Of a stretch of 23,110 nucleotides of DNA, positions 2,666 to 16,189 are shown piece by piece (position 1 is the first letter of the stretch; every line of letters starts with the position of its first letter). Position numbers and translations under genes: made by a program. Where the stretch lies: IMG/VR virus record IMGVR_UViG_3300020172_003463, positions 1 to 23,110 of that record. One strand, 5' to 3'. This stretch comes from a virus. Below the pieces are notes generated by a model. That model was not told where the DNA came from. It saw only the letters and a program-made list of their open reading frames with translations, and did not search any database.

Positions 2666-2694
2666 TTGACAGATCTAAATAATAATATTACAAT
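2666..2694 (+). promoter_or_regulatory. Sigma70-type promoter for queE
   Basis: TTGACA at 2666-2671 and TACAAT at 2689-2694 are separated by exactly 17 bases. The expected start near 2701 leaves a short leader with AAAGG at 2709-2713 before the queE ATG at 2724. The -10 box abuts the -10 box of the opposing promoter with a single base between them. Confidence 0.75.
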
Positions 2695-5052: not shown

Positions 5053-5523
5053 ATGAATGTAACGTCGAAAGCTGTTATTCCTAACAAGGAGTGGATTTTA
5101 GAGGACCACGGTAAAAAAATTGGTTCCATTTCTAAGATCAAAAAAGGTTACGCATTTTTGCGTAAAGGTCAAAAATTTGAATTTAAAAGTCTAAAAGAAA
5201 TTAAAGACGAACTGAACATTTCGGTTGCGGAACAAACACAAAAACCTGAACCTATTGATTACGGCAATACAATTTACGGATATCCGTGTAGTTCAAAACC
5301 CTACGAACCTGTTTACAATTTAAAGAAACGTCTTCCTCTTTACGCAAAAAGTGCAAAAAGTAAAAGTCAATATTGTGCAGGTTACTATGTAATCAAATTC
5401 CGTAAAGGTTGGGTTAAAAGTTTCTGTCCTAAGTTGATTACATTAGAACGATATCCATTCCACGGTCCTTTTAAAACAGAAACCGAAATGCGAAATACAT
5501 TGAATACTGTTAATAAATCATGA
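5053..5523 (+). CDS. Conserved phage hypothetical protein (156 aa)
   Basis: The start was set at ATG 5053, preceded by AAGG at 5041-5044. The open frame extends upstream to 4942, but that part lies within the 5' nuclease gene. The product is basic and rich in Lys, Tyr and Phe. Its N-terminal part (VIPNKEWILEDHGKKIGSI, residues 8-26) looks like a small beta domain. The C-terminal half holds a conserved-looking block, QYCAGYYVIKFRKGWVKSF, followed by CPKLITLERYPF. I recall this block from small genes of T4-like aquatic phages. The positive charge and aromatic content would suit nucleic acid binding, but no known domain is visible. It overlaps the next gene's start by four bases (ATGA). Confidence 0.72.
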   Translation: MNVTSKAVIPNKEWILEDHGKKIGSISKIKKGYAFLRKGQKFEFKSLKEIKDELNISVAEQTQKPEPIDYGNTIYGYPCSSKPYEPVYNLKKRLPLYAKSAKSKSQYCAGYYVIKFRKGWVKSFCPKLITLERYPFHGPFKTETEMRNTLNTVNKS

Positions 5524-5744
5524 AACAGCTCAATACATTACCCATAGAAGATTTCTTAGAAAAGGCCAGAATTGCGATCAAAAGCAATCAAAAAACTGTA
5601 AATTTGACCTTAAAAGAAGCTACAGATCTACAAAACAGTCTTAGTGTAGTAATGACACGCCTAGCAGGAGAGTTAGATCAACTTGTAACTAATTCTTCTC
5701 AAAATAACAAAATCGAAGTCAAAGTTGACGGTGGTAAATTTTAA
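5520..5744 (+). CDS. Small helical phage protein (74 aa)
   Basis: The start at 5520 overlaps the previous stop (ATGA), indicating translational coupling. The protein is predicted helical through residues 8-60 (IEDFLEKARIAIKSNQKT, then LKEATDLQNSLSVVM and RLAGELDQLV), with a short tail IEVKVDGGKF. It looks like a small coiled-coil or helical-bundle protein. I cannot assign a function. Its place in a run of tightly packed genes after the 5' nuclease suggests an early or middle operon. Confidence 0.65.
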   Translation: MKQLNTLPIEDFLEKARIAIKSNQKTVNLTLKEATDLQNSLSVVMTRLAGELDQLVTNSSQNNKIEVKVDGGKF

Positions 5745-5752
5745 GTAAAGCG

Positions 5753-5760
5753 GATAAATA
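5753..5760 (+). promoter_or_regulatory. T4-late-promoter-like box GATAAATA
   Basis: GATAAATA matches the T4 late promoter TATAAATA at seven of eight positions and lies in a 44-bp gap between genes. In T4, late transcription starts about six bases downstream of the box, which would be near 5766 here. No -35 box is needed for T4-type late promoters. That the phage uses a T4-like late sigma is inferred, since no such gene is in the window. Confidence 0.5.
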
Positions 5761-5790
5761 AGTACGCACTTTTCGGAGATACGTACTTAT
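5758..5790 (+). promoter_or_regulatory. Hairpin covering the start codon of the next gene
   Basis: ATAAGTACG (5758-5766) and CGTACTTAT (5782-5790) form a perfect 9-bp stem with a 15-base loop. The right arm includes the first two bases of the ATG at 5789, and the loop holds the GGAG ribosome site (5775-5778). The left arm overlaps the late-promoter-like box, so a transcript starting near 5766 would lack most of it and could not fold this way. Confidence 0.6.
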
Positions 5791-6088
5791 GAGTAGGCCA
5801 AAACCTAAAGTTTTATTAGAAGTTACAAATAAAAAAACCTACAAGACTGACATGGTTTTGGAGGCTGATGCCATCTGGGCAGTCTTCTATCAAGATAAAC
5901 CAATTAATTTAAAAACCAGTAGCATTGTTGCACAACAATTAGGACCTAAATACAAAAAGGTAAGTTTTTCAAATAGTGGTCACGCATTTAATCTAGCAGA
6001 AAAACTCAATAAATTGTTCAACACTGCTGACTTTGCCGTTTTTAAATTAAGCACCGGCGAAAAAGTCACAGATGAATCCCAAGTATGA
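5789..6088 (+). CDS. Conserved phage hypothetical protein (99 aa)
   Basis: This small protein begins with a basic segment and a beta-rich stretch (KVLLEVTNKKTYKTD). It continues with VLEADAIWAVFYQDKPIN and GPKYKKVSFSNSGHAFNLA, then a helix AEKLNKLFN and a strand FAVFKL. I recall this pattern from small genes of T4-like aquatic phages but know no function. The start is ATG 5789, ten bases after GGAG. A hairpin over this start and a late-promoter-like box just upstream suggest that its translation is tied to late transcription. Its 3' end overlaps the next gene by 17 bases. Confidence 0.7.
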   Translation: MSRPKPKVLLEVTNKKTYKTDMVLEADAIWAVFYQDKPINLKTSSIVAQQLGPKYKKVSFSNSGHAFNLAEKLNKLFNTADFAVFKLSTGEKVTDESQV

Positions 6089-6461
6089 TATCACCAAAGC
6101 GGTACTAGAATCAACAGGGCTAGTTGTTGACGAAAAAAGAATCAAAAAAACCATCCCAACTTGGTGGGTAAACCCAAGAAAAAAAGAAAAAGGTGGGCTT
6201 AGACTCACTGAGCAAGGGTTCGAATGCCTAAAACAGGCAGACATTAAATCATACGAACTCAAATTTGACGAACCGTTAGTAGTCACTAACGAATTACTAC
6301 TCTGGATAGACCAAAATTTAGATTGTCCGTTTTACATAACTAACCGGAAAATTTGGGTTTTTGGAGAAAGAATGGCTGTCCAATTAGTGTTGTTTTCTGG
6401 CAACATTGCTAAATTCCACAGAGCCCAAAAAAGATTCACAGAAAAACAAAAAACATCTTGA
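6072..6461 (+). CDS. Conserved phage hypothetical protein (129 aa)
   Basis: The start lies inside the preceding gene (17-base overlap). The product is basic and has a distinctive block TIPTWWVNPRKKEKGGLRLT at residues 27-46, followed by EQGFECL. Its C-terminal half contains CPFYITNRKIWVFGERMAV, which looks like beta-strands and a helix. The overall look is of a small phage regulator or nucleic-acid-binding protein, but this is a guess and no catalytic motif is present. The TGA stop (6459-6461) is embedded in the -35 box of the promoter for the AAA+ gene. Confidence 0.68.
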   Translation: MNPKYDITKAVLESTGLVVDEKRIKKTIPTWWVNPRKKEKGGLRLTEQGFECLKQADIKSYELKFDEPLVVTNELLLWIDQNLDCPFYITNRKIWVFGERMAVQLVLFSGNIAKFHRAQKRFTEKQKTS

Positions 6462-6486
6462 CAAGACAGCAGATCTTTGCTACAAT
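6458..6486 (+). promoter_or_regulatory. Strong sigma70 promoter for the MoxR-like ATPase gene
   Basis: TTGACA (6458-6463), a 17-base spacer, and TACAAT (6481-6486) preceded by TGC (6478-6480), an extended -10. This is the best promoter in the window and should be active with unmodified host polymerase. The predicted start is near 6493, leaving a 45-base leader. Confidence 0.8.
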
Positions 6487-7701: not shown

Positions 7702-8967
7702 ATGTCCGCAGTAATGAAACAAGAGAAACAAAAGAAACAAGATTGGCTAGGCAAGACTTTTAGTGAAAACGAAAAAGCTAAAATTCTTGATAAACTAATT
7801 ACCGCACGAGTTGGCCTGTTGCTCCGCCATCCGTTTTTTGGTAACCTTGCTACTCGAATGAAAATGATAGAAGCCAGTGACTGGTGTGCTACATTGGCAA
7901 CAGATGGTCGTAATTTTTATTACAACCTTGGTTTTGTAAACAAGCTCACTCCTAAAGAAGCAGAGTTTGGTTTTGCACACGAAGTCCTACATAACGTATT
8001 TGACCATATGGGTCGACGCGATAATCGCGATCCGCAGTTATCAAACATTGCCGCAGACTTTGCCGCAAATCAAATTCTTAAAGACGAGCGAATTGGGTCA
8101 GTGCCTAGCTTTATTAAAATTTTCCAAGACGACAAATACCGTGGTTGGTCCTACGAACAAATCTATGCAGACCTGTACGAAAAGGCTGAAAAGATTGATC
8201 TGAGCCAACTCGGCGAACTGCTCGACGAACACTTAGATGGTGAAGGCGATGGTGAAGGCGGAGGAGACGGCGAAGATGATCAAGAAGGCAAGGGTAAAGG
8301 TCGTCCTAAGCTGACTGCCGAAGAAAAGAAACAGATCCGTGACGAGATCAAAGAAGCAATGGTTGCGGCGGCGCAGAGTGCCGGTGCTGGTAAAATGCCG
8401 GCGGCAATTGCTCGAATGATCAAAGACTTCACCGAGCCAAAGATGGACTGGCGTCAACTGTTGCGTATGAATATCCAAAGTATTCTTAAGAGCAATTTTA
8501 GCTTTGCGCGACCTAACCGCAAGAGTCAACAATGTGGCGCTATTTTGCCAGGCATGATGAACGAAGAAACTATTGACGTGAGTGTGGCCATTGACATGTC
8601 AGGTAGTATTTCAGATAAAATGGCTAAAGAGTTTTTGTCAGAAGTTAAAGGTATTATGGATGAATACAAAGACTTCAAATTAGACATTTGGTGCTTTGAC
8701 ACAGATGTTTATGGATACAAACAATTTACTGGCGACATTGCAGACGAGATCAACGATTACGAATGTCAAGGCGGTGGTGGCACTGACTTTGAAGCCAATT
8801 GGCAGTTTATGAAAGACAACGATATTAACCCTAAAAAGTTTATCATGTTCACAGACGGATATCCTTGCGGTAGCTGGGGTGATGAAGATTACTGTGATAC
8901 GCTGTTTATCATTCACGGAAACGATGCCATTATTGCACCATTCGGCCAGACTGCCTATCATAAATAA
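7702..8967 (+). CDS. DUF2201-like metallopeptidase/VWA protein, partner of MoxR ATPase
   Basis: The protein has 421 residues in three parts. Residues ~20-165 form a metallopeptidase-like domain with HEVLH (93-97, the HExxH zinc motif) and a possible further ligand D119 in NIAADFAANQ. Residues ~178-200 are a Gly/Asp/Glu-rich flexible linker. Residues ~290-421 are a VWA-like domain with the metal-ion-dependent adhesion site DMSGS (298-302), a conserved Thr in GGGGTDF (T361) and FTDG (383-386). This architecture is typical of the VWA-like DUF2201/COG3864 proteins encoded beside MoxR ATPases. Whether it cleaves proteins is unknown, but the HExxH motif is intact. The end of the gene contains a late-promoter-like box for the next gene. 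Confidence 0.85.
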   Translation: MSAVMKQEKQKKQDWLGKTFSENEKAKILDKLITARVGLLLRHPFFGNLATRMKMIEASDWCATLATDGRNFYYNLGFVNKLTPKEAEFGFAHEVLHNVFDHMGRRDNRDPQLSNIAADFAANQILKDERIGSVPSFIKIFQDDKYRGWSYEQIYADLYEKAEKIDLSQLGELLDEHLDGEGDGEGGGDGEDDQEGKGKGRPKLTAEEKKQIRDEIKEAMVAAAQSAGAGKMPAAIARMIKDFTEPKMDWRQLLRMNIQSILKSNFSFARPNRKSQQCGAILPGMMNEETIDVSVAIDMSGSISDKMAKEFLSEVKGIMDEYKDFKLDIWCFDTDVYGYKQFTGDIADEINDYECQGGGGTDFEANWQFMKDNDINPKKFIMFTDGYPCGSWGDEDYCDTLFIIHGNDAIIAPFGQTAYHK

Positions 8968-8976
8968 AATAGGTAG
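8951..8976 (+). promoter_or_regulatory. Hairpin with late-promoter-like box in its loop, hiding the ribosome site
   Basis: Bases 8951-8958 pair with 8969-8976 (8 bp, one G-U). The loop contains CATAAATA (8959-8966), seven of eight matches to the T4 late promoter. The right arm contains the AGG ribosome site (8971-8973) for ATG 8980. A late transcript starting near 8972 would lack the left arm. The VWA gene's stop (8965-8967) lies in the loop. Confidence 0.5.
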
Positions 8977-8979
8977 TTT

Positions 8980-9270
8980 ATGGCTTTAAATAGAGGATCA
9001 GTTAATGCTTTAAATGTTTTGGGATTTAGGAAACTATCCTTTATTCCAGAGCATTTTTCCAAAATTAAAATTGACCATAAATTTGATACCAAAGCTGTAG
9101 AGCATTGGATTGAGTTCAACTTAAATAGCAGATACGCAATTCAAGTGAATTACGGTTTAGATTCTACTAGGAAGATGATTCTTATTACTGAAATAGGAAT
9201 GGAAGATCCTAAAGAATTGACCATGCTATCTTTGGGTTGCCAACATTTACATAAACAAAAGGATTTTTAA
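8980..9270 (+). CDS. Small phage hypothetical protein (96 aa)
   Basis: The product appears to be a small alpha/beta protein with no recognised domain: a basic N-terminus (ALNRGSVNALNVLGFRKLSF), then KAVEHWIEFNLNSRYAIQV and RKMILITEIGMEDPKELTML. The AGG ribosome site six bases before ATG lies in a hairpin arm, and a CATAAATA box is just upstream, so it may be expressed late. The next gene starts two bases after its stop. I do not recognise it. Confidence 0.6.
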   Translation: MALNRGSVNALNVLGFRKLSFIPEHFSKIKIDHKFDTKAVEHWIEFNLNSRYAIQVNYGLDSTRKMILITEIGMEDPKELTMLSLGCQHLHKQKDF

Positions 9271-15487: not shown

Positions 15488-16189
15488 TTAAATTCCAGTA
15501 CTTAGGCTTTGTATCCTAATAGTGTAATCCACTTGAATCATTCTATTCAATGATTTTTGCACAGGGTGGAAAATAACATGAGTTAACAATAACCCAGTGT
15601 CGGGTCCTTCTGGATTAAATGATTTAAGTCCAAGTTCGTCAAATACAAAATTACCTTCTGTGCTAGTAGCATTATCAAATGCAGCTTGTCCTGAAGGTTC
15701 ACCAAAATCTAATAAGCAACTAACAAGAACATCTGTGTAAACAACACCTGCAATATGACGTGTTTCCATGAAATTACGTGCAGGATCTAATGAGTAATCG
15801 CTTTTTGCATCTACAGTTTTGTAATAAGTTTGATTGTACAAACTTGCACCACTGCCAACATTATTAGGTGTTAGATATGTAATAATTCCAGTGCTATCAA
15901 CACGAGATCCACCGTTACCAAATACCATTTCTGCAATAGGACCTTCTCCTTGATTAGCAATACTTTGTGCTAAAGCAATAGAAAAGTTCTCATAATGAAT
16001 AGCATTACGCTTGTTTATGTAAACTTCTTTAGATACAGGGTCATAGATCTTAATGTGACCTTGGACACTGACGCCACCAACTTCGTTAGGTTTAGAAGTT
16101 GGAATAGATTCTTTTGGTAAATTACTCATGTTTTTTTCATCCATATTGATATTTATCAATAAATTTTTGTTAGTATTTTTATCTTCCAT
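15488..16189 (-). CDS. Small virion structural protein (233 aa)
   Basis: The protein contains GVSVQGHIKIYDPVSKEVYI, NKRNAIHYENFSIALAQSIA and IAEMVFGNGGSRVDSTGIIT, then VFDELGLKSFNPEGPDTGLL and a final strand RMIQVDYTIRIQ. I recall this pattern in virion proteins of T4-like cyanophages. A baseplate or fibre-attachment role is inferred from position. The start is uncertain. The longest frame begins at 16189, overlapping the protease gene by 11 bases. ATGs at 16144 and 16129 also lie in frame, and a GATAAATA box on this strand at 16150-16157 would place a late transcript start just before them. The Asn/Lys-rich first 20 residues look unlike the rest, so 16129 may be the true start in late infection. 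Confidence 0.75.
   Translation of the reverse strand: MEDKNTNKNLLININMDEKNMSNLPKESIPTSKPNEVGGVSVQGHIKIYDPVSKEVYINKRNAIHYENFSIALAQSIANQGEGPIAEMVFGNGGSRVDSTGIITYLTPNNVGSGASLYNQTYYKTVDAKSDYSLDPARNFMETRHIAGVVYTDVLVSCLLDFGEPSGQAAFDNATSTEGNFVFDELGLKSFNPEGPDTGLLLTHVIFHPVQKSLNRMIQVDYTIRIQSLSTGI
16146..16159 (-). promoter_or_regulatory. Late-promoter-like box inside a palindrome
   Basis: On the - strand TTGATAAATATCAA is an inverted repeat (TTGATA/TATCAA around AA) containing GATAAATA at 16150-16157, seven of eight matches to the T4 late promoter. It would direct transcription into the small virion gene and the three fibre genes downstream. It lies within the 5' part of the annotated frame, which is why that gene's start is in doubt. 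Confidence 0.5.

Follow-up and report, generated by a model that had tools for sequence, protein, structure and literature searches.

Does the leader of a conserved 99-aa gene in an environmental phage act as a switch that keeps early transcripts silent and lets late ones be translated? We examined this question in a window of 23,110 nucleotides (the whole stretch of DNA analyzed, positions 1 to 23,110 of IMG/VR record IMGVR_UViG_3300020172_003463) and in the leaders of homologous genes from other viral contigs. Taken together, the evidence makes a translation switch governed by promoter choice, as in T4 gene e and I-TevI, the probable reading (roughly 0.85), as set out below.

A late promoter box overlaps a hairpin at the start codon

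A preliminary description of this DNA had proposed a perfect 9-bp inverted repeat covering the AT of the start codon, with the GGAG ribosome site looped out and the left arm overlapping a seven-of-eight match to the T4 late promoter, and each of these elements was recovered in our analysis. On the plus strand, a T4-type late promoter box GATAAATA occupies positions 5753-5760 (core TAAATA at 5755-5760) and is identical to the T4 late promoter TATAAATA at 7 of 8 positions. The left arm of the hairpin, ATAAGTACG (5758-5766, assigned from predicted fold and covariation), begins within this box and is the exact reverse complement, over 9 bp, of the right arm CGTACTTAT (5782-5790), which spans the spacer and the AT of the start codon. 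The ATG of the 99-aa gene lies at 5789-5791 with its A and T paired in the right arm, and the GGAG Shine-Dalgarno sequence (5775-5778) falls inside the loop, where part of it has an alternative predicted pairing with CUU. The minimum-energy fold of the predicted RNA pairs exactly these two arms (-12.5 kcal/mol), and an RNA beginning at 5766 is predicted to adopt a weak and different fold (-3.8 kcal/mol).

The late promoter box of T4 spans -13 to -6, and on this spacing late transcription would start at the sixth base after the box, plus-strand position 5766. In T4 late promoters, an 8-bp TATA box precedes the start by approximately one helical turn (PMC2988020), and TAAATA sites in the jumbo phage PA5oct have A at 70% six bases after the box. 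The geometry of box and arm fits a late switch with the start so placed.

Because the front half of the hairpin would be encoded inside the late promoter, early messages would be silent and late ones translated. In the proposed mechanism, the 99-aa gene would lie in an operon read early by the host sigma70 polymerase, and the resulting read-through RNA would hold both arms, fold, and bury the spacer and start codon, preventing initiation. Late, a phage gp55-type sigma factor would bring polymerase to (N)ATAAATA/GCTAAATA, and the RNA would begin about 6 nt past the box, at 5766, with the left arm absent entirely or nearly so, leaving the GGAG and AUG open for translation. The start site, the read-through and the translational effect are each inferred.

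Taken by itself, the window sequence is weak evidence for any such switch, since 26 of 200 shuffled versions of the segment fold equally well (z = -1.16 for the window fold) and among 1201 gene starts of the relatives, 14 (1.2%) carry a perfect helix of at least 9 bp that covers the ribosome site or start.

The leader hairpin is conserved with compensatory changes

We therefore turn to the leaders, defined as the sequences upstream of 99-aa gene homologues in viral contigs, of which 155 were distinct among the matches listed. TAAATA was present upstream in 153 of the 155, preceded in the leaders by the dinucleotide GA, AA or GC, and 147 of the 153 boxed leaders had a stem (score ≥6.5) linking the bases right behind the box with the start codon. 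The left arm ends 5-9 nt past the box, mostly 6-7, with variable loop length. The preliminary description had turned on whether the stem persists alongside the gene, as it does within this clade, and had proposed looking for compensatory changes in homologous loci, which are plentiful: 37 different 7-nt left arms occur across the leaders, and near-neighbor left-arm differences comprised 345 compensated on the other side, 25 saved by G-U pairing and 186 with one member unpaired (counts of sequences rather than independent events). Stem positions from box+1 to box+9 each exhibit several pair types, including A-T, T-A, G-C and C-G. When paired with their own partners, the arms reached a stem score of at least 7 in 94% of cases, compared with 35% when arms were swapped between leaders. 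In one contig (L109, near 5256), box and hairpin are both gone and the start of the upstream gene is fused to the 99-aa gene, apparently through a deletion that extends into the former; this could be an assembly error.

Loss of the left arm is predicted to open the start region

To represent late RNA, we removed everything before the sixth base after the box. Across 108 leaders, opening the start region was predicted to cost a median of 9.5 kcal/mol in the long RNA vs. 2.2 kcal/mol in the late RNA, with the difference exceeding 2 kcal/mol in 98% of leaders. Among 36 homologues of 63-71% identity, the cost dropped from 9.3 to 2.3 kcal/mol once pre-start RNA was removed. The window's own stem yields a difference of 4.4 kcal/mol, below that of many leaders, which counts as a point against the switch.

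TAAATA is associated with virion genes in PA5oct, and large relatives encode a gp55-type sigma factor

Of all hexamers, TAAATA shows the strongest enrichment upstream of genes in PA5oct and in each of six large relatives. In PA5oct, 35 of 93 genes taken as virion-detected (those whose annotation has an ESI-MS/MS note) have it in front of them vs. 27 of 339 others (p = 4.5e-11; 7-fold enrichment). Each of 12 large contigs examined carries a gene for a gp55-type late sigma factor related to the one in PA5oct. The PA5oct protein matches phrog_12791 and has a weaker match to phrog_234, the family of T4 gp55; no gp55-type sigma gene was identified within the 23-kb window fragment. The T4-type clamp models PF09116 and PF02916 had no match in the relatives, although the control genomes were also barely matched by them. 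The hexamer enrichment, the association with virion genes and the presence of the sigma factor in 12 of 12 contigs support the reading of TAAATA as a late promoter in these phages. Together with the conserved box and stem and their covariation, the gp55-type sigma factor also favors the late-translation switch that the preliminary description had interpreted from this leader.

The putatively controlled gene and its operon

The putatively controlled gene (5789-6088, plus strand) is conserved, with at least 588 relatives confirmed in viral contigs in a first scan and further homologues in PA5oct, Phosso, Atu_ph07 and Salicola phage SCTP-2; a megablast of the region against phages returned no match. 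Sequence searches with its 99-aa protein against Pfam, PHROG, NCBIfam and PDB returned no match, and its structural model (pLDDT 69, modest) has no fold match. The end of the gene is overlapped by a 129-aa gene (6072-6461, plus strand), which may be translationally coupled to it and to the switch; its protein gives a confident model (pLDDT 87) with no significant fold match.

The upstream neighbor in this operon (5520-5744, plus strand) stops 8 nt short of the box, and our scan detected no convincing terminator between it and the box or before 5789. It closes a plus-strand run of genes starting at 2724 (QueE-like), 3574, 4020 (exonuclease), 5053 and 5520. Ahead of this run is a sigma70-like promoter, TTGACA-N17-TACAAT (2666-2694, plus strand; 11/12, a consensus match only), which is a candidate source of early read-through. 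Given the plus-strand run, this site and the lack of a convincing terminator in the scan, early read-through into 5789 is likely. A further sigma70-like sequence (6458-6486, plus strand; again 11/12 as a consensus match only) lies before a MoxR-type ATPase gene, and is a candidate for the resumption of early transcription downstream of the switch.

Variant hairpins, distant relatives and other boxes

Some leaders have arrived at a different geometry. In L283, the ribosome site is hidden by a 10-bp helix that AGGAGTTAAC forms with GTTAACTCCT, which lies upstream of the box; the box itself is looped out, and the arrangement in L152 is similar. These different hairpins would have the same effect, as the blocking arm would be absent from late RNA. 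An insertion is present in the leaders of L141 and L142; in L141, the space between the hairpin and the 99-aa gene is exactly filled by a 186-aa GIY-YIG/NUMOD3 homing-endonuclease-like gene (L141:4694-5254), and the stop of this inserted gene overlaps the GTG of the 99-aa gene. Being inserted there, the endonuclease gene now lies behind the switch.

The homologues in PA5oct, Phosso, Atu_ph07 and SCTP-2 retain TAAATA, with no stem over the ribosome site evident by eye in any of the four, and the PA5oct leader, the only distant one folded, gave no comparable hairpin. With the box but no clear hairpin in these distant relatives, the switch appears specific to the environmental clade. Before the PA5oct gene we noted CCCTGTATA-gtc-TATACAGGG-TTTTT, terminator-like by eye, and PA5oct may insulate its gene with a terminator instead of a hairpin; this stays a suggestion because the scan did not flag the element. 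As a separate observation, PA5oct gp228 (L162:20955-21161) is a ribosomal protein S21 (Pfam E = 1e-15).

We also asked whether such switches form a genome-wide family. Of 190 TAAATA sites drawn from seven sequences, eight had masking hairpins that exceeded all swapped controls vs. 3.1 expected, a mild excess, and on these numbers we rejected a genome-wide family, leaving the 99-aa gene as the conserved case. Individual sites from this material merit mention in their own right. The leader of PA5oct NC_071039 135020-136453 (L161:35020) has TAAATA and an 8-bp GTCTCCGT/ACGGAGAC stem over GGAG (-22.8 kcal/mol, z = -5.1), the largest masking effect among the screened sites, and gene starts in G001 near 59786 and 8144 (L214 and L212) have strong start-masking stems at TAAATA, above all swaps.

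Within the window, a second late box CATAAATA (8959-8966, plus strand) precedes the ORF at 8980-9270. The late promoter at 8959-8980 is conserved as TATAAATAAAGTAGGTA, with a leader of about 8 nt before the ORF, and an apparent hairpin at this box is not conserved in relatives, because its left arm sits in coding sequence. That this box is conserved without a conserved hairpin indicates that our method does not find hairpins at every box. The 96-aa product of the ORF matches the FANCL UBC-like domain weakly and below threshold (E = 8e-4), and the ORF adjoins MoxR ATPase and VWA-type genes. On the minus strand at 16150-16189, GATAAATA also occurs within the first codons of a 233-aa ORF; translation of this ORF may really begin at an ATG further downstream (MSNLPKES...), which would place it behind a late promoter.

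Alternative readings of the leader

The alternative that survives best is that the hairpin damps every transcript, or serves as a temperature or RNase element, untied to the late promoter, so that its overlap with TAAATA is incidental. The hairpin would indeed cover the start in any RNA containing both arms, but the box-to-arm spacing is fixed with the arm ending at the inferred start, and the blocking arm of L283 and L152, located upstream of the box or overlapping it, would still be lost from late RNA; we regard general damping as unlikely. It is quite improbable that late transcription starts further upstream and that the late mRNA keeps the hairpin for stability or fine tuning, given the T4 distance of around one helical turn from box to start (PMC2988020), the enrichment of A at box+6 in PA5oct and the gp55-type sigma factor.

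A DNA-level explanation, in which the dyad is an operator and a dimeric repressor covers the late promoter, would have a model in I-TevI, which is known to autorepress at a late promoter (PMC2988022). An operator would conserve sequence and spacing, whereas here there are 37 left arms and the loop length varies while complementarity is kept, and this reading is highly improbable. We rejected both a repressor operator and a terminator, as the arms stay complementary despite changes in sequence and loop length and the stem extends to the start codon. Finally, the window fold's z of only -1.16 would suit a chance inverted repeat beside a chance AT-rich motif, an origin that we reject and give almost no credence, since the hairpin is conserved with covarying, compensated arms over 155 distinct leaders.

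The promoter-choice switch is thus the reading we retain. Beyond it, we lean toward a broader picture in which a conserved non-T4 jumbo lineage has independently retained, or evolved anew in more than one geometry, a switch on one small gene, whose protein would be harmful or useless early and needed late, and whose leader can be captured by invading homing endonucleases.

Comparison with known systems

The preliminary description had pointed to T4 genes e, soc and I-TevI as precedents; these, plus gene 49, are documented cases of a late promoter combined with a hairpin (PMC3014915). The T4 mechanism is therefore already known, and the instance in jumbo phages outside the T4 family is new, the same switch in jumbo phages not having been found in the open-licence literature searched. 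It carries a textbook mechanism of T4 over to environmental jumbo phages, an abundant and widespread group, and offers a natural covariation set of about 150 distinct leaders vs. a handful of T4-type leaders. Early expression of the 99-aa gene would be selected against, which is a direct functional lead, and the endonuclease insertion in L141 suggests that a mobile gene may gain stage control by landing behind an existing switch.

A close parallel is T4 gene e, where early long transcripts fold a hairpin over the initiation region, and late promoters coincide with the DNA for its 5' strand, which late RNA therefore lacks (PMC3014915). The present case differs in that it concerns another phage clade and an unrelated gene, with the GGAG in the loop and the spacer and start codon in the stem, and in that covariation maintains the hairpin over a far larger sequence set. 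In T4 I-TevI and segB and in Aeh1 mobE, a late promoter likewise lies directly upstream and a hairpin sequesters the ribosome site early (PMC2988022), but those genes are selfish endonucleases, whereas the gene here is a resident one. As for the promoter itself, the Aeh1 late promoter variant replaces TA with a/gC at -13/-12 (PMC2988020); the leaders studied here share the TAAATA core of the T4-type late promoter TATAAATA, and their GC and AC forms match the Aeh1 variant (PMC2988020), with the difference that they belong to PA5oct-like jumbo phages, whose late sigma factor (phrog_12791) is distantly related to T4 gp55.
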